The translations under genes and the position numbers were made by a program. Below are positions 1 through 26,259 of a DNA stretch of 27,921 bases, one piece after another. Where the stretch lies: the IMG/VR virus record IMGVR_UViG_3300027578_000029, positions 1-27,921 of that record, one strand, 5' to 3'. The DNA comes from a virus. The notes under the pieces are model-generated. The model searched no databases, was not told the DNA's origin, and was given only the letters and a program-made list of their open reading frames with translations. The number at the start of each line of letters is the position of its first letter. Within the stretch, counting starts at the first letter, position 1.

Positions 1-2189
1 CCTGATGTACCGCTTGTTGCGCCGCTTGTGCCAGCAGTTCCGTTAGAGCCGCTTGCCCCGCTTGTACCGCTCACACCGCTTGTGCCGCTCACACCAGTTG
101 TTCCGCTGGATGCACCGCTTGTGCCGCTAGTTCCATTTGAACCGCTTGCACCACTTGTACCGCTTGTTCCAGTTGTACCGCTTACGCCACTTGTGCCGCT
201 CGCACCAGTTGTACCACTAGATGCACCGCTAGTTCCACTAGTGCCATTAACACCACTTACACCACTAGTACCACTTGTTCCAGTTGTTCCGCTAGAATTT
301 CCACTTGTGCCAGAAGTTCCATTTGAACCGCTTGCGCCACTTGTTCCACTTGTTCCAGTTGTACCGCTTACGCCACTTGTGCCGCTCGCACCAGTTGTAC
401 CGCTAGATGCGCCGCTTGTACCACTAGATCCATTTGAACCACTTGCACCACTTGTACGACTTGTACCGCTTGTACCATCAGTGGCTCCATTAACTCCACT
501 AGTACCATTTGTGCCGCTTGTTCCACTGGTGCGGCTTGTACCTGATGTGCCGTCAGAAATGCCACTTGTTCCGCTAACACCATTTGTACCACTTGAACCA
601 CTAGTGCGGCTTATGCCTGATGTACCGCTTGTTGCGCCGCTTGTACCAGCAGTTCCGTTAGAGCCGCTTGCCCCGCTTGTACCGCTCACACCGCTTGTGC
701 CGCTCACACCAGTTGTTCCGCTAGATGCGCCGCTTGTGCCGCTAGTTCCATTTGAACCGCTTGCACCACTTGTACCGCTTGTTCCAGTTGTACCACTAAT
801 TGCGTTTGTACCGCTTGTACCATTAGAGCCGCTTGCGCCACTTGTGCCACTTGTTCCAGTTGTACCGCTGATGCCATTTGTGCCGCTTGTACCATTAGAG
901 CCACTTGCACCGCTTGTGCCACTTAAACCGCTAGTACCGCTCGCACCAGTTGTTCCGCTAGATGCTCCGCTTGTACCGCTAGTGCCATTAGCGCCGCTTA
1001 CACCGCTAGTGCCACTTGTGCCGGTTGTACCGCTAGAATTTCCACTTGTACCGCTTGTGCCATTAGAACCACTAGCGCCACTTGTTCCACTAGTTCCACC
1101 AGTACCACTAGTACCACTAACTGCATTAGTGCCATTTGTACCATTAGAACCACTTCCTCCACTTGTGCCACTTGTTCCAGTTGTGCCGCTTACGCCACTT
1201 GTGCCGCTCGCACCAGTTGTGCCGCTAGATGCGCCGCTTGTGCCGCTAGTTCCATTTGAACCGCTTGCACCACTTGTACCGCTTGTTCCAGTTGTTCCGC
1301 TAGAATTTCCACTTGTGCCAGAAGTTCCATTTGAACCGCTTGCGCCACTTGTTCCACTTGTACCAACTGTACCAGCTGTTCCACTAATTGCACTTGTACC
1401 GCTTGTACCATTAGAGCCGCTTGCGCCACTTGTGCCACTTGTTCCGGTTGTACCACTAATTGCATTTGTACCGCTTGTACCATTAGAACCACTAGCGCCA
1501 CTTGTACCGCTTGTTCCGGTTGTGCCACTAGAAGCTCCACTAGTACCGCTTGTTCCATTAGAGCCACTTATTCCACTTGTGGAACTAGCTCCGCTTGTAC
1601 CGCTTGCGCCTCCAGTTCCGCTTGTTCCATTGGAGCCACTTATTCCACTAGTACCACTTGCACCAGTTGTTCCGCTAGAATTGCCACTTGTACCACTTGT
1701 ACCATTAATTCCACTTATACCACTAGTTCCACTTGTGCCAGTTGTACCAGCTGTTCCACCTGTACCATTAGAGCCACTTACACCACTAGTACCACTTGTT
1801 CCAGTTGTACCGCTAATTCCATTTGTACCACTTGTACCATTAGAACCACTTGCGCCGCTTGTACCACTTGTTCCTGTTGTGCCACTAATTGCATTTGTAC
1901 CGCTTGTGCCATTAGAGCCGCTTGCACCACTTGTACCGCTTGTACCGCTTGTGCCATTTATACCGCTTACAGCACTTGTTCCACTTGTACCGTTAGAGCC
2001 GCTTGTGCCACTTGTACCGCTTGTACCACTTATACCGCTAACTGCATTTGTACCACTTGTGCCATTAGAGCCACTTGTACCGCTTGTACCATTCGTCCCA
2101 CTCGTTCCAGAAGTTCCATTTGTCCCAGAAGACCCGCTTAATCCAGAAGTACCACTTGTTCCACTAATTCCAGAAGTACCATTCAAACC
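1..2189 (-). repeat. Gly-X-Y collagen-like coding repeat with segmental duplications
   Basis: About 730 codons of nine-base units encoding mostly Gly-Thr-Ser-type triplets on the minus strand. There are larger duplications inside it: bases 1-179 match 616-794 with three mismatches, an in-frame offset of 615. A segment near 285-350 recurs near 1293-1358, offset 1008. About eleven four-residue breaks of the form GASS, GNSS or similar are always followed by GTTG. Several other units have Ala or Arg in place of Gly (for example GTNAIS and GTSRTS). Confidence 0.9.
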
Positions 2190-3368
2190 GCTTAAAGCAA
2201 CGATATTCCAAGTGGTTCCATCGCTAGCTAAAGTAACAGAAGTATATTGTGGTAAATAATAATTATTTAATCCATCAATCTGACCAAGAGAAGTTCCATC
2301 AATTATAACTTGTCCACTGCCTTTGTTTTTAATTACAAATTGTCTACCAGCATTAGAAGAAGCAGCGATAAGAGTAACTGTTGACGAAGATGAAGAATTT
2401 ATAACAACAACATCATCGTCAGTTGTAATTTGATAATTTGTTGTTTCTATTGAAACGTTTCTTACGATAGCTTCTGCGGATAATGTTGCCCCAACATTAA
2501 AAGAACCAGAAACGTAATGCTGACCAGTTCCGTTTAATTCAAGAAGGTCAGTATTGTGCCAAACTCCAGATCCAGTATGATAAGCGAGAATTGAATTATC
2601 AGTTGGTGCAATTATCTTAACGTCATGAAGCTCTTCTAGCTCATAACCGTTTTGAACTCTTACATAGAGTTGGCCATTTCCATTGTTAGCTTTTTCAACA
2701 ACACCAATGAACACCATATGATATGGCGCTTGCGGTTTTGTTACAGTTAGTGAACCAGGTGTTGTTCCTAGCCAAAGAATATCGCCATCATTATAAGCTG
2801 CAAGACTTAATCCGTCTACAACGCCAACGCTTTTTACATAACCAAGTTGTCCAGCAGCGATATTTTCAATTACAACACCAAGAGTTTTTGACGAAGTTGC
2901 GTCAGAAAGATTTGAAGCTAATTTTACTGTGGCCTTATCGCCTTGCGCACCAAACAAGTAAACAACTTCGCCTTTAGAAATTACTCCCGTTTCAGCATTT
3001 CTGACATAAGCTACTAAATCTTGCCCTAAATTAGTTGTGGCTCCCCCAAGTAAACCTAATTCTAAAGAAGCTTGATCATCATTCCATAAAAGCTGGGCGG
3101 GATTAGAAACAAGCCCTAATCCAGTATTAAAAGTTATTGAATTAAAAACTCCACTGTTTCCCGTAACAATTCCAGTAAAAGCGCCAGTAATATTATTAGC
3201 GTTTAAATAATACGAGCCATCAAAACCGTCTAATTTATCAGAATCGGCTGCTTTGCCAGTTGTACTTAAGTACAAGCCACTTAAATTAAGATCATTTATA
3301 ACCCCAGTAGCATCAACTACTTGGAAGTTAATCTGAGAAGTGCCTGTGCCTAAATAGTACTTGCCCAT
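1..3368 (-). CDS. Collagen-like tail fibre protein, partial (3' end off the left edge)
   Basis: The frame is open from ATG 3366-3368 to the left edge, giving at least 1122 codons with no stop. It opens with MGKYYLGTGTSQINFQ. Residues 1 to about 393 are a non-repetitive structural region that ends in a fibre-type segment (SVTLASDGTTWNIV). From Gly394 onward nearly everything is Gly-X-Y triplets of the kinds GTS, GTN, GTT, GAS and GSN. I saw no proline in the repeat. It is the last late gene in the window, 33 bases after the 517-residue fibre gene, and AAAAGGA lies just before the ATG. By family knowledge, Gly-X-Y domains in phage fibres make trimeric shafts. A receptor-binding tip would lie beyond the edge, but this is inferred. 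The long opposite-strand proline-rich frame is only a shadow of these repeats. Confidence 0.85.
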   Translation of the reverse strand, partial: MGKYYLGTGTSQINFQVVDATGVINDLNLSGLYLSTTGKAADSDKLDGFDGSYYLNANNITGAFTGIVTGNSGVFNSITFNTGLGLVSNPAQLLWNDDQASLELGLLGGATTNLGQDLVAYVRNAETGVISKGEVVYLFGAQGDKATVKLASNLSDATSSKTLGVVIENIAAGQLGYVKSVGVVDGLSLAAYNDGDILWLGTTPGSLTVTKPQAPYHMVFIGVVEKANNGNGQLYVRVQNGYELEELHDVKIIAPTDNSILAYHTGSGVWHNTDLLELNGTGQHYVSGSFNVGATLSAEAIVRNVSIETTNYQITTDDDVVVINSSSSSTVTLIAASSNAGRQFVIKNKGSGQVIIDGTSLGQIDGLNNYYLPQYTSVTLASDGTTWNIVALSGLNGTSGISGTSGTSGLSGSSGTNGTSGTSGTNGTSGTSGSNGTSGTNAVSGISGTSGTSGTSGSNGTSGTSAVSGINGTSGTSGTSGASGSNGTSGTNAISGTTGTSGTSGASGSNGTSGTNGISGTTGTSGTSGVSGSNGTGGTAGTTGTSGTSGISGINGTSGTSGNSSGTTGASGTSGISGSNGTSGTGGASGTSGASSTSGISGSNGTSGTSGASSGTTGTSGTSGASGSNGTSGTNAISGTTGTSGTSGASGSNGTSGTSAISGTAGTVGTSGTSGASGSNGTSGTSGNSSGTTGTSGTSGASGSNGTSGTSGASSGTTGASGTSGVSGTTGTSGTSGGSGSNGTNGTNAVSGTSGTGGTSGTSGASGSNGTSGTSGNSSGTTGTSGTSGVSGANGTSGTSGASSGTTGASGTSGLSGTSGASGSNGTSGTNGISGTTGTSGTSGASGSNGTSGTNAISGTTGTSGTSGASGSNGTSGTSGASSGTTGVSGTSGVSGTSGASGSNGTAGTSGATSGTSGISRTSGSSGTNGVSGTSGISDGTSGTSRTSGTSGTNGTSGVNGATDGTSGTSRTSGASGSNGSSGTSGASSGTTGASGTSGVSGTTGTSGTSGASGSNGTSGTSGNSSGTTGTSGTSGVSGVNGTSGTSGASSGTTGASGTSGVSGTTGTSGTSGASGSNGTSGTSGASSGTTGVSGTSGVSGTSGASGSNGTAGTSGATSGTS

Positions 3369-6983: not shown

Positions 6984-6991
6984 ATTTACAC
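6984..6991 (-). promoter_or_regulatory. GTGTAAAT box, candidate late promoter after capsid terminator
   Basis: Minus-strand GTGTAAAT preceded by TATAAAATAGAAAA, just past the strong terminator and 18 bases before the next ATG. A terminator followed at once by further same-strand genes calls for a new promoter here, which makes this the best-supported copy of the motif. Confidence 0.45.
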
Positions 6992-7013
6992 TTTTCTATT
7001 TTATAAATGAAAT

Positions 7014-7059: not shown

Positions 7060-8205
7060 TTAGACGATCTTGCCTACGAGGGCGCGAACGTCGAGAACTA
7101 CACGGCCTTCCTCAAGGGAGCCGAAGTAACCGATCTTGTTCTGACGGATGCTGTATTGATCATCAGCAACCAGATTGAACTCAGAGTTCGAATCTGGATC
7201 TGTTGCTACGACGCGGAGCAGTGAGTCACGGCTGCGGTCGATACCAACAAGAATTTCTGTTGTAGAACCGTTGAACTGAGCGGAGCCACTTCCAGCAGCT
7301 GTTGTATAGTTTGTTGACGCAGCAGCTGTGTCGAAGATGGTGTTGAACTTCTGACCAATACCGAGTTCATTGAACTCAAGGATATTAACACCGTAGAAGC
7401 TGGGGATACCAGCGCTATTGTAGATAGCTGTGCGCATTTCATCAGTAGCGGCGATACCGTTCTCGCTTCCGTTACCGGCGGTGCCAGCTACGGAGGGAGA
7501 GCCTTTGGTATTAATTGGGTTATAAGCCATAGCACGAATCTGCTCGGTGACCTCTGGGGAAACCAGAAGGTCAGTCAGGCCAGCGCGTGAACCAGAGGCA
7601 GGTGTTCCCTTGGCCCATGATGTGTTGATGCGCTTTGCCAGAGTGAGGAGTTCGTTAAGGTCAGCGAGAAGGAAACGGCCAGCAACGTTAGCGCGCTGAA
7701 CGTGTTTCTTGCTGTTTGTCTCTGCGTTAGCGAGAGCAGTCATGGCCAATGTGGCAGAAGTACGCTCCTGCTTGAGCAGGATTTCCTGTGCCATACGGGT
7801 GAATGTCTTAGCTACAACGTCCATGCGATGCTTTGCAGCATAACGACGGTCGAAGGAGAGGGCGCTGTCCAGTGTGTAGGTGGTCAGCTTCATCTCGGAG
7901 ACTGTGGGGAGAACCTGATTGGTGGGAAGACCACCAGCTACGGACTGTGAGTATACAGTGATGTAGTCCTCGTCAGTTACGTCGTAGTACAGGTCGAGAG
8001 GAATGCTGGGATTATCATCAGCGTTGTATGAGAGGCTGGTGAACAAATTGCTCAGTGTAGGAGCATTGTTAATAACCTCTGCAAGAACGGGTCCGATGAA
8101 CTCAGCGAGTGCGACTTGAGCATCATAAGCAACAGTGCGATTGCGACTAGCCATTGCTTTGATAAGCTCAATCTGTTCTGGGGTGCGCTTTAATGTGATT
8201 TTCAT
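7060..8205 (-). CDS. Major capsid protein (HK97-fold type), 381 aa
   Basis: Called from length, composition and position: after the decoration-like gene, closed by a strong terminator, and in the protease-scaffold-decoration-capsid order. The N-terminus is helical (MKITLKRTPEQIELIKAMAS). The middle has a segment like an HK97 E-loop and spine helix region (SALSFDRRYAAKHRMDVVAK, then a long helix through about residue 165). Ser/Gly-rich loops follow at about 205-250 and 290-315. The end is FGSLEEGRVVLDVRALVGKIV. A ribosome site (AAAGGAAA) lies about 10 bases before the ATG. Its codons are visibly richer in G+C than flanking genes, as expected for a very highly expressed product. No cleavage site was identified. 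Confidence 0.85.
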   Translation of the reverse strand: MKITLKRTPEQIELIKAMASRNRTVAYDAQVALAEFIGPVLAEVINNAPTLSNLFTSLSYNADDNPSIPLDLYYDVTDEDYITVYSQSVAGGLPTNQVLPTVSEMKLTTYTLDSALSFDRRYAAKHRMDVVAKTFTRMAQEILLKQERTSATLAMTALANAETNSKKHVQRANVAGRFLLADLNELLTLAKRINTSWAKGTPASGSRAGLTDLLVSPEVTEQIRAMAYNPINTKGSPSVAGTAGNGSENGIAATDEMRTAIYNSAGIPSFYGVNILEFNELGIGQKFNTIFDTAAASTNYTTAAGSGSAQFNGSTTEILVGIDRSRDSLLRVVATDPDSNSEFNLVADDQYSIRQNKIGYFGSLEEGRVVLDVRALVGKIV

Positions 8206-16244: not shown

Positions 16245-17295
16245 CTAATGATATTCCTAATATGCGCGCCTTCCATTCTACCATACTTTCCATTTTTTTT
16301 GCTTCTTCTGCAACGAGAGATTTTTGCATTTCGGCAATTTTAATCATATTGGCTCGCTCTTCTTCATCTTGGAAAAGTTGCACAATAGAAAGAATAGAAG
16401 CATTCTCTTTATGTTTAGAAGATATTCTTTCTCTTCTGTCTCCTTGTAATTTTTTAATTAAGCTTTCTACTCTGCCTTCGCACTGATGATATTCGCTGCT
16501 TTTAGCTTTAATAATTTCGGCTAAACGAATACTCATTTCATTTTGCTCTTGAGTTTCCTCAAACATTTTGTTTAATTTGTCCAAATGGCGAGAAGTAGTT
16601 TCTAAATTAATAATTTCTTTGCAAACATTCATATACAAATTAACTTCATCCGCTGTCAAATCTGGTTTATCCCAAGTCATGCGGATGAATTCTTGTTCAA
16701 AAATATTTCTATCCTCTTCTGAAGTGTAACAGTTTATAATTTTTTGAAAACGAGAATTTAGTAAATTAATTGCGAGTTTTTCTGCACAAACCTTTTGCTG
16801 TCTTGTTAACCGATCTTTATCAATTTTTTCTCCAGTGGCTTCGTTGATTCGATTAATCACACGTTCTATTGAACGTGGAGTTTGATATTTAACAAACATC
16901 GCATCATCTGATGTGGCGTTATTTTCACAACCAGAATTTCTGATGTAAGAGCCAACAGTTCTATGTTCAAGACCCATTGCTGATATCGGCCTATCTGGAA
17001 AAAGAAGCTCCGCTATTCTCAGAGCCGAAATACCATTTTTTGCTTGATCTTCAATAAATTGTTCTTGTTCTGGAGTCAGTGGTAAATCACCTACTTTTTC
17101 GTATTTTGATGTTTTATATTGAATTTTATTTGAGGCCAATAAAGATCTGATAGCAATTCCTTGCCTCGTTCTTCCATCAAGAGCTTCATCATTAAAAAAT
17201 TTTCGAGTTATAGTATTTAGATCAGGAAATTCTTTCGCAAGTTCGATAATTTTTTGACGATCCTCTTCACTAAAGCTAATTTTATTATTTGCCAC
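16231..17295 (-). CDS. Double-HTH DNA-binding protein, candidate small terminase, 354 aa
   Basis: The first 125 residues contain two similar helix-turn-helix-like units. One is SFSEEDRQKIIELAKEFPDL followed by TITRKFF (about 8-34). The other is PLTPEQEQFIEDQAKNGISA followed by LRIAELLFPDR (about 72-102). Both have the form acid-rich helix, turn, recognition helix. A long Lys/Glu-rich helical region fills 150-340. It directly precedes the nuclease and large terminase, where the small terminase subunit normally lies, and no other small-terminase candidate is present. At 354 residues it is longer than most small subunits, so a transcription regulator is an alternative. Confidence 0.5.
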   Translation of the reverse strand: MANNKISFSEEDRQKIIELAKEFPDLNTITRKFFNDEALDGRTRQGIAIRSLLASNKIQYKTSKYEKVGDLPLTPEQEQFIEDQAKNGISALRIAELLFPDRPISAMGLEHRTVGSYIRNSGCENNATSDDAMFVKYQTPRSIERVINRINEATGEKIDKDRLTRQQKVCAEKLAINLLNSRFQKIINCYTSEEDRNIFEQEFIRMTWDKPDLTADEVNLYMNVCKEIINLETTSRHLDKLNKMFEETQEQNEMSIRLAEIIKAKSSEYHQCEGRVESLIKKLQGDRRERISSKHKENASILSIVQLFQDEEERANMIKIAEMQKSLVAEEAKKMESMVEWKARILGISLDDAV

Positions 17296-17992
17296 CTAAT
17301 ATGTCCTCGTTTTGAAGAATTTTAGTCGCTACTTGTTTAAAGAGCTTTTTTAGATTTTTGATTTGTTTGTACCCTGCCTTTTTGCCTTTTTCGTTTGTTC
17401 TATATCCCATTTCCGCTGCTACTTTTTCTTCATCTGCTCCATCAATATACAATCTAGAGTAAACTTTATATTGTTTGGGGGCCAAACGATGTTTCATTTC
17501 TTCGTGAAGTCTAGCTGCGCTAGCAAGGATATTGAAACTTATATCTTTCATTTCCCTAACTGATTCAGCATGATTTTCTATAGAGACAGAAAGCTTTACG
17601 TCATATGCTGATTTTTTTGTCTTCTCCCATTTTCTATAAAGCGGACATTCGTTGCATTGTCTACCACTTGCAGTTATAGAACACGCTGGAGGCTCATTAC
17701 CTAAATTATATTTGCACCCCAAACATGGTCGAACATAATTTGAATAATTATTTCTTAGTATGTTTTTGATCTGATTGACGGTAATTCTAGCAATCCAAGG
17801 CTCTAACGGCCTATCTTGTTTCCATAGTTTCCATTTCTTAGAAATATGGAATCTAATTATTTGGGCGACATCTTCATAATCCATCCAAGCAATCGCCTTA
17901 AGCTGCCAGATATATCTGTGCTTCTCTATTATCTTATCTATAACATCCTGCTTGTCTTCGTATTTAATCTTCTCTCGCTTTGGAGCTTCCAT
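17285..17992 (-). CDS. Sigma-like factor with Cys-rich insertion, 235 aa
   Basis: Residues 36-80 (WMDYEDVAQIIRFHISKKWK, then LEPWIARITVNQIKNILR) match sigma-70 region 2: an acidic DYEDVAQ helix and a Trp-containing -10-recognition helix. Residues 90-116 hold Cys90, Cys93, Cys104, Cys113 and Cys116, suggesting a zinc-binding insertion. Residues 170-225 (LAPKQYKVYSRLYIDGADEE and following KVAAEMGYR) resemble a region-4 HTH. It has no region 1 or 3 and is near the length of T4 gp55-like late sigma factors. It would direct RNA polymerase to phage late promoters; this is inferred. It overlaps the zinc-ribbon gene by 29 bases and the HTH gene by 11. Confidence 0.72.
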   Translation of the reverse strand: MEAPKREKIKYEDKQDVIDKIIEKHRYIWQLKAIAWMDYEDVAQIIRFHISKKWKLWKQDRPLEPWIARITVNQIKNILRNNYSNYVRPCLGCKYNLGNEPPACSITASGRQCNECPLYRKWEKTKKSAYDVKLSVSIENHAESVREMKDISFNILASAARLHEEMKHRLAPKQYKVYSRLYIDGADEEKVAAEMGYRTNEKGKKAGYKQIKNLKKLFKQVATKILQNEDILGGK

Positions 17993-19187: not shown

Positions 19188-19997
19188 CTAAACCATCTCT
19201 TCGATTATCTGTAGCCCTCCTTTTGCTACACCATTACTATCAATCGAAACTGCCTGCGAATTTAAGACTCCAGACATGTAAAATGAATTTCCATCTGGCA
19301 TTGTTATTGAACCAGAAACTGTTGTATTTGGTTGATAATCAGAAAGCCAATCAATATTTGATATTCCATTTATCTGCAACGACTTTGTTATCTTGCTGAC
19401 ACTTACTTTTGTTGGGTAAATGCTTCCTATTTCAAAATTAGGCGCTCTATCAATTTCAATACTGAAATTTAAATTTTCGTATTCATTAATTTGCTGAGTA
19501 AAATTAATTCCAGATAAATTAATAGTCATGTTTCTCAATGGCGAAATTATTCCTGTTTCAGCGCTCTGACCATCATATACATATATACCGCTACCTGTTG
19601 CAAGACCATAAGAATCAAACTGCATTTCCAAAAACATTGGTTTCCAAGGCTCCAACGAAAAACTCATACTTTTCAAAAAACATTTATCAAATCTATACGA
19701 TGGAACGTGAATAAAAGATCCGCTTGTAAAATCCCCAGTGAGTGCAAGAAATCCTGTAAATTGATTAACTCCCGCGCCAGTTACAGGTAATACCGTTGTG
19801 GATATTGAGGCGCTTTTGGGGCCAGTTTGAATATAATAATCTAACTCTTGACCAATTCTTTTTACTCTTTTTAATTGAGTTGCATTGCTTGCGTTAAAAT
19901 TGGATGCGTACAGTACATTACAAACCCCTGTATTTGTGGTTTGCTCATCTCCATTTGACAAAAATGCACGAACAGTACTGTATGAAACGTAAGACAT
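19188..19997 (-). CDS. Putative tail tube/virion structural protein, 269 aa
   Basis: A beta-rich protein with no catalytic motif. Segments LKRVKRIGQELDYYIQTGPK (about 43-62) and FTSGSFIHVPSYRFDKCFLK (about 90-109) followed by SMSFSLEPWKPMFLEMQF look like tail tube or tube-initiator strands. The C-terminal half contains repeated short beta runs (MTINLSGINFTQQINEYENL; KSLQINGISNIDW; TVSGSITMPDG). It is 11 bases after the mini-MscS-like gene. It lies upstream of PhoH and the packaging genes rather than with the fibres, so a tail role is only moderately supported. Confidence 0.55.
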   Translation of the reverse strand: MSYVSYSTVRAFLSNGDEQTTNTGVCNVLYASNFNASNATQLKRVKRIGQELDYYIQTGPKSASISTTVLPVTGAGVNQFTGFLALTGDFTSGSFIHVPSYRFDKCFLKSMSFSLEPWKPMFLEMQFDSYGLATGSGIYVYDGQSAETGIISPLRNMTINLSGINFTQQINEYENLNFSIEIDRAPNFEIGSIYPTKVSVSKITKSLQINGISNIDWLSDYQPNTTVSGSITMPDGNSFYMSGVLNSQAVSIDSNGVAKGGLQIIEEMV

Positions 19998-20008
19998 TAG
20001 AGCTTATT

Positions 20009-20368
20009 TTAATTTTTTTTAGACATTTTCAAATCATCCTCTTCAATTTTAGATAATCTCTTTAATAATTTTACACTTTCAAGTTTACAGTTTGGCATTG
20101 TAATGCGATGACCTCCGGTTATTATCCCATTAGGATCAACTTCATATAAAAATAAAGTTGTTGACATCCAGCCCATTCTAACTATCCTTGCTGGACTTTT
20201 TGTTCCGTCCCAAAAAACCAACACATCATCCTCCTTGAAACCCGAAGTTATTCTAAATAAAAGGCTTTTAACTATATTGATTATAAACTCTTTAAATAAT
20301 AAAGAGGCTACTCCTGCTGCTAAAAGAACAGAGTATTCGGAAATAAAACCATTAAATTCTTTTTCCAC
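20009..20368 (-). CDS. Mini-MscS-like membrane protein, 119 aa
   Basis: Starts at GTG 20366-20368. Residues 13-38 (VLLAAGVASLLFKEFIINIV and following) form one hydrophobic helix like the pore helix of MscS. It runs straight into a beta domain: GFKEDDVLVF (43-52), ARIVRMGWMSTTLFL (60-74) and HRITMPNCKLESV (87-99). The order (G-F-x-x-x-D, then a V-x-x-x-G-x-x-x-T strand, then a P-N) is that of the MscS beta domain. MscS itself has three transmembrane helices and a large cytoplasmic domain; this has only the helix and beta domain. It might gate or anchor something in the host envelope. The alternative is an unrelated SH3-like fold. Confidence 0.6.
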   Translation of the reverse strand: MEKEFNGFISEYSVLLAAGVASLLFKEFIINIVKSLLFRITSGFKEDDVLVFWDGTKSPARIVRMGWMSTTLFLYEVDPNGIITGGHRITMPNCKLESVKLLKRLSKIEEDDLKMSKKN

Positions 20369-20375
20369 TTAAATA

Positions 20376-20382
20376 ATTACAC
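20376..20382 (-). promoter_or_regulatory. GTGTAAT box, weaker candidate late promoter
   Basis: Minus-strand GTGTAAT seven bases before the GTG start of the mini-MscS-like gene, preceded by GGTATAAAA. First gene of the leftward block, so some promoter is required here. Confidence 0.35.
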
Positions 20383-20399
20383 TTTTATACCAAAAACCA

Positions 20400-20427
20400 T
20401 TGACAAATGAATCGTTTGAGGTAAGAT
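20400..20427 (+). promoter_or_regulatory. Sigma70-type promoter for the rightward operon, leaderless layout
   Basis: TTGACA (20400-20405), a 16-base spacer, then TAAGAT (20422-20427). Only seven bases separate this box from ATG 20435, so transcription would start at or next to the start codon. No Shine-Dalgarno is present. Confidence 0.6.
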
Positions 20428-22135: not shown

Positions 22136-22513
22136 TTGAACGCTATTTCTTTTTCGGAAGTATCTCACCATCCCAAAGGCTGGGGCGAAGAAGTTTGGGT
22201 TATTAATTGCCCACAATATTGTTTAAAGTTCCTACTTTTCAAGGCTGGAAGTAAAGGCTCGCTACATTTCCACGAAAAAAAGCAAGAAACTTGGTACATT
22301 GAAAGTGGAAAGCTTGATCTAGAAATGATTGATACTACAAGTGGATTATCAAGAACCGTTAATCTTTTTCCTGGAGATGTAGTGCATATCCCACAATTTT
22401 GTCCTCATAGAGTGTCCGCTGTAACAGACGTAAAAATTATTGAAGTTTCTACGCAGCACTTCGAAGACGATTCATTCAGAATTAAACCAGGAGACTCTCA
22501 AAATGCCGTTTGA
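22136..22513 (+). CDS. Cupin domain protein, 125 aa
   Basis: Starts at TTG with AGAGGG about 7 bases upstream. It shows the cupin motifs: GSLHFHEKKQETWYIESG (His44, His46, Glu51) and GDVVHIPQFCPHRV (His91), giving the usual 3-His/1-Glu metal site. The tail (IIEVSTQHFEDDSFRI, about 101-116) resembles the cupin end of type II mannose-6-phosphate isomerase/GDP-mannose pyrophosphorylase proteins. It could bind or isomerise a sugar phosphate, which would fit the carbamoyltransferase and nucleotidyltransferase nearby. Function beyond the fold is inferred. Its last 11 bases overlap the next gene. Confidence 0.75.
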   Translation: MNAISFSEVSHHPKGWGEEVWVINCPQYCLKFLLFKAGSKGSLHFHEKKQETWYIESGKLDLEMIDTTSGLSRTVNLFPGDVVHIPQFCPHRVSAVTDVKIIEVSTQHFEDDSFRIKPGDSQNAV

Positions 22514-23109: not shown

Positions 23110-24726
23110 ATGAATATATTAGGAATAACATTTGGTAGCCATAGCTGTGGATTATCTTTACTTAAAGATGGGCAAGTTATTTTCGCCGTTGAAGAGGAAA
23201 GATTTGTAAGAGTAAAGGCATTTAAAGATTTTGAAAGAGATGTCATACGCTATCCTGGTTTGTGCGTTGCTTGGGCCAAGAAAAATTTTGCAAAAGAAAT
23301 GGAAAATATTGATGTTGTCACCAGCTTCTTTTCGAAGAAGGATATTGACGTATGTTTAGACGCTTGCCATTTGAGCGATTTAAAAGAAAAAACTTATATT
23401 AAAACAAGCCATCATGAATCGCATTGTAATCTCGCTTACTATCTAAGCAATTTCCAAGAAGATGCGCTTGTAATATCTATTGATGCTAGTGGAACGCAGC
23501 ATAGCGCTAAATTTTACATTGGTCAAAACGGCGATCTTAAATATATAGACGGCATAGATATAAATCACAAGTCTCTTGGCCACTACTATGCAATGTTAAC
23601 AGAGCTTTTAGGGTGGAGAAGATTAAAAGACGAAGGTAAAGTAGTTGGCATGTCTTCTCATGGAAGATTTGACAAAAAATACTTTGAAGCTTTTGACAAA
23701 AGCATCACGATTAATGGTCTTAAAACAGACGAAGACAAGAGTTGCGATACTATTTTAGGTGGCGTTTATAAAGATTTTTATAATAATTTCTTTAAGACTA
23801 ATGGAAGCATTTTCTTTTTTCACAGAAAAGCTGATCTTGCTTTTAACGGACAACTTGTTTTTGAAAATAAAATTCTCCAGCTTATAGATAATCTACATAA
23901 TTTATATCCAAATGTGAAAAATCTTGCGCTTGCTGGTGGAGTTTTCGCAAACGTAAAATTAAATAAAAGAATTAACGATTTACCTTGGGTCAAAGAAGTT
24001 TTTATTGCTCCTCCTATGGGCGACGAAGGTTTGCCTTTAGGGTGCTGCTTGACAACCTATAAACAATTTAATCCAGACTTCAGACCGTTTAGAATAAACG
24101 ACATGTTTTTAGGTGCAAGTTTTTCGGATCAAGATACAGAGCAGCTTTTTTGGGATAAGTCAAAATTTGATAGAGAGCCTTATAGCGACGATAAAGTTGC
24201 TGAAGAATTGGCTAACGGTAAAATTGTTGGCCTTGTTTGGGGAAGGTTTGAGCATGGCCCAAGAGCATTATGTAATAGAAGTATCATTGCCAATCCTAGT
24301 ATTCCCGGTACTTATGACAGAATAAATAAGAAATTGCAACGCAATGACTTTATGCCATTTGCTCCAGTTGTCATTGACATGTTCGCTGATGAAGTTTTTG
24401 ATGTAAAAAAATCACGTTATACTGCCGAGTTTATGACGATGCTTTATGACACTAGAAAAAATTGGATTTGCAAAATACCGGCGGTTGTTCATCCAATTGA
24501 CCATACAGCTAGAATTCAAATTGTTACTCCACAAAGTAATCCAAGATTCTATAACTTAATCACTAAATTTGATCAAAAAACTTCTATCCCAGTTTTGCTA
24601 AATACCTCTTTTAATATTCACGAAGAGCCTATTATCTGCTCTCCAAAAGAAGGTTTTGTTCATCTTGGAAATGATGTTGTTGATTTATTGGTGGTAGATA
24701 ACTTTGTTTACAAAAAGAAACAATGA
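23110..24726 (+). CDS. NodU/CmcH-family carbamoyltransferase, 538 aa
   Basis: The N-terminal Kae1-like domain starts MNILGITFGSHSCGLSLLKD and carries the metal-binding set TSHHESHCNL (His101, His102, His105) and SIDASGTQ. The middle has LALAGGVFANVKLNKRI and FIAPPMGDEGLPLGC. The C-terminal part has GPRALCNRSI, MPFAPVV and VLLNTSFNIHEEPI, typical of NodU/TobZ O-carbamoyltransferases. These use carbamoyl phosphate and ATP to carbamoylate a hydroxyl, usually on a sugar, and the essential residues look intact. ATGA overlap with the next gene. In a phage, likely acceptors are modified DNA bases, sugars on the virion or host surface polysaccharides, and the sequence cannot tell which. Confidence 0.9.
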   Translation: MNILGITFGSHSCGLSLLKDGQVIFAVEEERFVRVKAFKDFERDVIRYPGLCVAWAKKNFAKEMENIDVVTSFFSKKDIDVCLDACHLSDLKEKTYIKTSHHESHCNLAYYLSNFQEDALVISIDASGTQHSAKFYIGQNGDLKYIDGIDINHKSLGHYYAMLTELLGWRRLKDEGKVVGMSSHGRFDKKYFEAFDKSITINGLKTDEDKSCDTILGGVYKDFYNNFFKTNGSIFFFHRKADLAFNGQLVFENKILQLIDNLHNLYPNVKNLALAGGVFANVKLNKRINDLPWVKEVFIAPPMGDEGLPLGCCLTTYKQFNPDFRPFRINDMFLGASFSDQDTEQLFWDKSKFDREPYSDDKVAEELANGKIVGLVWGRFEHGPRALCNRSIIANPSIPGTYDRINKKLQRNDFMPFAPVVIDMFADEVFDVKKSRYTAEFMTMLYDTRKNWICKIPAVVHPIDHTARIQIVTPQSNPRFYNLITKFDQKTSIPVLLNTSFNIHEEPIICSPKEGFVHLGNDVVDLLVVDNFVYKKKQ

Positions 24727-25462: not shown

Positions 25463-25610
25463 AGTAGGAGAACTGCTTGCAATTTTAAATGAAAAAAATA
25501 CTAGTAATGGGTCTTCCCGGCGCGGGCAAGACAACCCTATCAACAGAACTGGCAAAGCTTCTAAACGCAGTTCACTTCAACGCAGACGAAATAAGAAAAG
25601 AAATAAATAA
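25392..25610 (+). CDS. Possible small overlapping ORF, 72 aa
   Basis: The first 35 codons (MELLQRIPKEHYTTHEGKQI, then KVGELLAILNEK) read like real protein, while the rest is a shadow of the kinase gene in another frame and is Arg/Ser-rich. It overlaps the HAD gene by 71 bases and the next gene by 122. It may be an independent small gene, or a remnant cut by a length change in the A7 run at 25492-25498. Without that run a short peptide would remain. Low confidence. Confidence 0.25.
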   Translation: MNQMELLQRIPKEHYTTHEGKQIKVGELLAILNEKNTSNGSSRRGQDNPINRTGKASKRSSLQRRRNKKRNK

Positions 25611-26259
25611 AAATCTTGGCTTTTCTCCAGAGGATCGTATAGAACACGCCAAAAGAATGGGTGTTTTATGTGACATTGTGACTCGCTCTGGTCAATATGC
25701 AATTGCGGATTTTATTTGCCCCACACCAGAAGCTAGAGAAGCTTTTGGGCTAGAGAATACATTTGTTGTGTTTGTAAACAGAAAGCCAATTAGAGACTTT
25801 GCTGACACGACCAAAATGTTTGTGGCTCCAAACAAAACCCATGTTGTGGTAACTGACGATGGATCGCCGCTTTATTGGGCAACCAAAATCAAACAATTAT
25901 TAATTCCAACGTTTAACAGCAAAGCGCCAACTGCTTTTATGTTAGGGAGATATCAGCCATTTCACGATGGTCATAAAAAATTAATCATTGAAGGAATCAA
26001 TAGAGTTGGGCAAGTTTGCATTGCGATCCGAGATACCCAAGGAATTGACGAGAAGAATCCCTTTAATTTTGAGCAAGTTGAGCAGAATATTCGCGCGGCT
26101 ATGCACGAATACGATGGCAAATACTCAATTGTTAGAGTGCCAAACATAACTAATATCTTTTACGGTAGAGACGTAGGGTATAAGATAGAAGAGATTGTGC
26201 TTGATGAAAGTACTCAAAATATATCAGCAACTAAGATAAGGTCAGAAATTTTAAAATAA
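25489..26259 (+). CDS. APS-kinase-like P-loop kinase fused to nucleotidyltransferase, 256 aa
   Basis: Residues 1-140: MKKILVMGLPGAGKTTLSTE contains the P-loop GLPGAGKT (8-15). NADEIRKEINKNLGFSPEDR (31-50) and YAIADFICPTPEAREAF match APS kinase (CysC) rather than a plain nucleotide kinase. Residues 145-256 are a cytidylyltransferase-type domain with QPFHDGH (His159, His162) and the ISATKIR ending (245-251). The fusion order is kinase then transferase, the reverse of NadR. It probably activates a small molecule by phosphorylation and nucleotidyl transfer. Candidates are PAPS-like, NMN or sugar phosphate. It closes the enzymatic part of the operon. Confidence 0.78.
   Translation: MKKILVMGLPGAGKTTLSTELAKLLNAVHFNADEIRKEINKNLGFSPEDRIEHAKRMGVLCDIVTRSGQYAIADFICPTPEAREAFGLENTFVVFVNRKPIRDFADTTKMFVAPNKTHVVVTDDGSPLYWATKIKQLLIPTFNSKAPTAFMLGRYQPFHDGHKKLIIEGINRVGQVCIAIRDTQGIDEKNPFNFEQVEQNIRAAMHEYDGKYSIVRVPNITNIFYGRDVGYKIEEIVLDESTQNISATKIRSEILK

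Follow-up and report, generated by a model that had tools for sequence, protein, structure and literature searches.

A short MscS-core-like protein gene opening the virion-gene strand in a group of uncultured phages

Several reduced or virus-encoded proteins of the MscS type have been described. MscS2 of the microsporidian Nematocida displodere is very short, has no parts beyond a TM3-like helix and an MscS beta domain, and was reported to form heptamers (PMC11262690), and TcMscS of Trypanosoma cruzi (165 aa, no C-terminal vestibule) forms a mechanosensitive heptamer that conducts (PMC12334622). In large DNA viruses, MscS- and MscL-type genes of unproven function have been reported; the MscS-type protein of Aureococcus anophagefferens virus comprises 261 aa and three helices, while the other large-virus proteins are of the MscL type (PMC6163359). 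MscL was also reported in marine Caudoviricetes (PMC13288924). A phage protein restricted to TM3 and the beta domain was not found in the open-access full texts searched. The gene analysed here, termed msc, encodes a protein which we describe as MscS-core-like, i.e. its relation to MscS is treated as a resemblance and not as demonstrated homology.

The gene is located on a 27.9-kb virus record, the whole of which is referred to as the window. Its reading frame is open on the minus strand (Table 1), and translation from the GTG start yields a protein of 119 aa beginning with MEKEFNGFISEYSVLLAAGVASLLFKEFIINIVKSLLFRITSGFKEDDVLVFWDG. Relatives with 67-99% identity were found at 41 IMG/VR loci, one additional locus (L059) was recovered through synteny, and the location of the gene is conserved among them. 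A comparison of msc in the window with that of L020 showed 24, 15 and 69 differences at codon positions 1, 2 and 3, respectively, and the dN/dS, given only where dS could be estimated, amounted to 0.03-0.09. Based on the 41 relatives, the preference for third positions and the low dN/dS, msc is a genuine conserved phage gene under strong purifying selection. Its carriers are a group of uncultured phages. No relatives were found in 50,697 phage records, a tblastn search of plasmids gave only one chance-level match (E = 4) and thus nothing usable, and a pattern-based scan of the genome-contig collection, which is blind to distant relatives, gave none.

Table 1. Location of msc, its parts and the adjacent elements (positions refer to the window unless a locus is named).
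Feature	Position	Strand	Basis or remark
msc, gene of the 119-aa MscS-core-like protein	20009..20368	minus	GTG start; stop included
Predicted long helix, residues 2-42 (TM3a/TM3b-like)	20243..20365	minus	AlphaFold (low confidence) and hydropathy
FKEFIINIVKSLL, residues 25-37, aligned to the MscS TM3b motif (N31 = N117 of E. coli MscS)	20258..20296	minus	alignment
Beta-domain-like part, residues 44-104, longer hairpin before N93	20057..20239	minus	AlphaFold and profile alignment
Following gene, encoding a conserved protein of 269 aa (possibly tail; no family match)	19188..19997	minus	directly after the motif in msc-less phages
AAGTGTAATT, motif copy of the kind preceding late genes	20375..20384	minus	motif comparison
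Sigma-70-type promoter TTGACA-16-TAAGAT of the divergent strand	20400..20427	plus	read from sequence; reverse complement partly conserved
AAAGTGTAAAT-like motif copies	window 6984-6993 (-), 20375-20384 (-); L238 5565, 5934; L240 3275; L242 12146, 14149		
Apparent msc deletion scar	L049 3900-4001		last msc bases and spacer seem kept; late motif kept upstream

Within this phage lineage, msc is accessory and dispensable. L049 and L052 carry no msc, while their 269-aa protein is 92% identical to that of the window, and two further clades (L060-type and L074/L075) are likewise devoid of the gene. No copy was detected elsewhere in the msc-less records searched, which are fragments. In a tree calculated from the 269-aa protein and PhoH, the msc-less groups appear in three places; L049/L052 are sister to the clade of the window with a support of 0.999, and the deeper nodes are weak. 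In both L049 and L052, the sequence ahead of the 269-aa gene (...TTTAAAATATCAAAAAAAAATTAGAATAAATTCTAATG) still resembles the end of msc plus the spacer (...TTGAAAATGTCTAAAAAAAATTAAAATAAGCTCTAATG), which would fit a deletion scar. Since the region is AT-rich, this reading is only suggestive. A role of msc as an essential virion component is ruled out, because sister phages do without it.

The gene is the first one of the co-oriented virion-gene strand. It is followed by the genes for the 269-aa conserved protein, PhoH, a 123-aa CxxC-containing protein, a sigma-region-2-like protein, an ERCC4-type nuclease and the terminase large subunit, and then by probable portal and capsid-region genes. On the divergent plus strand, which presumably carries the early genes, the sigma-70-type promoter is followed by a metallophosphoesterase gene and further small genes. 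Directly upstream of msc, the inspected phages possessing the gene show a AAAGTGTAAAT-like motif, which also occurs upstream of the head-region gene p131 (window and L242) and, in related contigs, upstream of an ORF of 676 aa and of a tape-measure-like one of 2229 aa. In the msc-less phages the motif precedes the 269-aa gene, and in the L020 clade a second copy, which precedes this same gene, is overlapped by the terminal msc codons (...KKSVK). The distance from the motif to the start of the late or structural gene is 9-32 bases. Three copies were counted in the window compared to 0.56 expected by chance, a number reached by 2 of 100 shuffles; the argument is based on the recurring position ahead of gene starts. 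From this position we infer that the motif is a candidate late promoter of the phage and that expression of msc probably falls late in infection. As the start codon often follows only about 10 bases after the motif, mRNAs from the candidate promoter would be nearly leaderless. The sigma-region-2-like protein of 235 aa (17285-17992, minus strand; weak match to sigma-70 region 2, E 3e-4) is highly conserved in the phage group and is a candidate for the late sigma factor acting on this motif.

The position of msc also bears on the idea that its product is a superinfection-exclusion protein in the host membrane, an idea suggested by the small size, accessory nature and patchy distribution of this membrane protein. 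Superinfection-exclusion proteins block the entry of related phages, and most are early products or stem from a prophage. Since msc opens the virion-gene strand behind a late-type motif, whereas exclusion would call for early expression, this explanation is highly improbable, and the motif, if correctly interpreted, makes a late role more plausible than an early block.

Apart from msc, a number of other genes were observed. In the L020 clade, L238 contains a gene (7488-7829, plus strand) for a 113-aa one-helix coiled-coil protein with a weak DUF2730 match between PhoH and the CxxC protein, which is missing at the corresponding place in the window and represents another accessory membrane gene and a possible lysis candidate. 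At the edge of the window, a tail-fibre-like ORF with a very long GTSG/GASG-type repeat region (3-3368, minus strand) runs off the contig; its antisense shadow is seen as an ORF of 743 aa on the plus strand (28-2259). The presumed early strand carries genes for a cupin protein (22136-22513, plus) and a carbamoyltransferase with Carbam_trans_N and _C (23110-24726, plus), with HAD-like and metallophosphoesterase genes nearby. A fusion-type protein (25489-26259, plus) combines a P-loop kinase (APS-kinase-like) domain with a subsequent cytidylyltransferase-like domain, which is suggestive of nucleotide or NAD metabolism.

The msc protein comprises one hydrophobic segment and no further domain. Its N-terminal helix reaches a best 19-residue Kyte-Doolittle mean of 1.89 (2.13 for TM3 of E. 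coli MscS), whereas the TM1-TM2 sensor paddle and the C-terminal vestibule are both missing, in agreement with the preliminary description, according to which the rest of MscS is absent. Due to the missing paddle and vestibule the protein is named MscS-core-like and not MscS. Both parts are absent from accepted minimal MscS members, too. According to residue equivalences inferred from alignment, FKEFIINIVKSLL corresponds to LQGSLSNLAAGVL of E. coli TM3 and is closer to other MscS proteins, for example LKDILSNFISGLL (L107), than to E. coli TM3. Furthermore, G43-F44-K-E-D-D-V-L aligns with P129-F-R-A-G-E-Y-V and A60-R-I-V-R-M-G-W-M-S-T-T with G143-T-V-L-S-V-Q-I-F-S-T-T of E. coli MscS. Two conserved MscS positions are kept (N117 as N31 and N167 as N93), while G113, G121 and G143 are replaced by E27, S35 and A60, and P129 corresponds to G43. 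P166 is retained only in the clade of the window and is Q in the other msc clades, and the hairpin preceding N93 is about 9 residues longer than in MscS. The helix further carries K26 and K34. Together with E27 and S35 in place of G113 and G121, these lysines imply that any gating must differ from that of MscS; since the kink glycines are replaced and the tension-sensor helices are missing, it is uncertain whether MscS-like gating occurs. The positive C-terminal side of the helix favours a location of the C-terminus inside, as in MscS, and the predicted orientation is accordingly N-terminus out and C-terminus in.

For the comparison with MscS, a profile of the TM3 and beta segments of 16 diverse MscS proteins was used. 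With hhalign, the msc family aligned to this profile over 78 columns with P 5.5e-4, the register being kept all the way from TM3 through the final strands. Of 2000 column shuffles, 1000 of them full and 1000 segment-wise, not one attained the observed score (best 24.2 vs 25.3), while a score of 15.9 was obtained with the reversed profile. In an unfiltered search of 1430 distinct ORFs of the phage group with the MscS HMM, all 16 distinct family ORFs ranked first, with E-values of 0.012-0.45 compared to 0.65 for the best non-family ORF. Single-sequence hhalign placed family members at ranks 1-11 (window protein 22.4, best of 326 other ORFs 19.0), while five weaker members ranked among the decoys. 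Alternative MscS sets gave the same register with P of 0.0012, 0.0021, 0.0076, 0.03 and 0.09, and a 100-sequence profile rich in gammaproteobacteria lost most of the signal (P 0.059, 31 beta-domain columns only). The test was not fully blind, as the MscS idea came from an earlier look at the same sequence. Altogether, the similarity to TM3 and the beta domain of MscS appears weak but above chance, with a strength that depends on the MscS set.

Curated resources gave no corresponding match. None of 15 family members matched Pfam even at E 10, the beta-domain model PF00924 gave no match above the cut-off for the family and none within five related contigs, and searches of NCBIfam and of PDB sequences with the msc protein were empty. 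Weak matches to PHROGs 24501 and 35490, both of unknown function, provided nothing usable. The comparison of the family with the single E. coli MscS by hhalign was uninformative, patterns derived from E. coli MscS gave no match in the viral contigs, and a profile of MscS proper detected seven full-length MscS loci, none of them relatives of msc. AlphaFold monomer models of the window protein and of the member scoring best against MscS both showed, at low confidence, a helix at residues 2-42 followed by strands at 49-53, 59-65, 71-77 and 83-90; with a pLDDT of about 56 they cannot decide on the fold. Foldseek gave no meaningful match for these models, and its top matches (lectin, PCNA and others) were regarded as noise.

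These empty searches, the PHROG matches and the sensitivity of the P-value to the choice of the MscS set would be accounted for if msc encoded a membrane protein that combines a single helix with a small beta barrel not related to MscS, such as a membrane or assembly factor of the phage, and if its similarity to MscS had arisen by convergence or chance. However, a single register runs through the helix and the beta part of the match, whose score exceeds those of shuffles and decoy ORFs. This makes the explanation rather unlikely, and the msc protein is probably a true MscS-type core. It is not filed under MscS, since both a curated-model match and the paddle and vestibule are lacking. With regard to the minimal MscS-like phage protein proposed in the preliminary description, the origin from a phage is borne out by the terminase and PhoH context and the likeness to MscS by the helix-to-beta order and the colinear similarity, whereas curated models give no match and the low-confidence structure predictions do not decide on it; of the pore-like helix and MscS beta domain claimed for the 119 residues, the hydrophobic helix is present, while the beta domain is indicated by weak but above-chance profile evidence and not by a curated model. 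The roles in envelope tension, superinfection or lysis suggested there are putative.

As an MscS-type core, the msc product would be a small inner-membrane protein with one pore-type helix (TM3a/TM3b) and a beta domain below, which may assemble as a ring, a heptamer if MscS-like. Late in infection, before the endolysin of the phage lyses the cell, this ring could act as a leak or tension-relief valve and thereby adjust the turgor and permeability of its host. Since minimal MscS proteins can form heptamers and conduct, a late leaky or turgor-relieving ring or a modifier of host MscS is the best-supported reading of the putative function. We tentatively regard the late inner-membrane ring serving as such a valve as the best explanation overall, with a chance somewhat below even. 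That the phage lineage cut MscS down to the pore helix and beta ring for use as a late accessory valve or host-MscS modifier is conceivable, though doubtful.

Taken separately, the modifier would be an MscS-type core without a channel of its own that co-assembles with or binds host MscS and alters its gating in a dominant manner, for example for stopping solute loss or shifting the time of lysis. The ring-packing core is kept without sensor paddle and vestibule, and a host partner is likely, as PF00924 proteins occurred in 16/16 cellular genomes and in the 14 control genomes searched. Nonetheless, the interaction is putative and msc is distant in sequence from every host MscS, so that this possibility is unlikely.

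A further candidate function is that of a holin or another lysis-timing protein causing inner-membrane lesions at the end of infection. Holins are late membrane proteins required for lysis, normally alongside an endolysin, and most of them have no folded beta domain of the size found in msc, which counts against this assignment. The single predicted membrane helix and the late-type motif would agree with it, as would the fact that the phage group has an endolysin with no holin identified. Since close sister phages do without msc and, in contig G001, about 8 kb separate it from the gene of the endolysin, a holin is nevertheless very unlikely. A place of msc in a lysis cassette is not supported.

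If msc encodes a true MscS core, these phages would manage host turgor late in infection, and the protein would be a natural minimal construct for the parts of MscS needed for ring formation and tension sensing, a phage-made device for turgor control among the smallest MscS-type proteins outside microsporidia. A natural comparison is offered by sister phages that differ in the presence of msc, their virion genes being otherwise conserved. Even if msc is not related to MscS, the AAAGTGTAAAT motif and the history of gain and loss aid the annotation of this group of uncultured phages. New in this analysis is the position of msc as the head of the virion-gene strand behind the recurring AAAGTGTAAAT motif.

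Compared to the known systems, the msc protein resembles N. displodere MscS2 in layout, since both are very short and comprise only a TM3-like helix and a (in msc predicted) beta part. In contrast to this protein of a eukaryotic parasite with a recognisable MscS beta-domain sequence, msc matches no curated model and belongs to a late block of phage genes. With TcMscS it shares the minimal size and the absence of the C-terminal vestibule, but it has one helix in 119 residues instead of an N helix, TM2 and TM3, and unlike the three-helix protein of 261 aa from Aureococcus anophagefferens virus it is confined to TM3 and the beta part. Among the PF00924 matches in the 16 genomes, the shortest ORF comprised 204 aa. 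As in bacterial MscS (E. coli, PF00924), the TM3b motif, F/L-K-x-x-D, S-T-T and the N positions are colinear in msc, whereas the TM1/TM2 paddle, the vestibule and G113/G121 are absent, the hairpin is longer and the similarity lies below Pfam detection.
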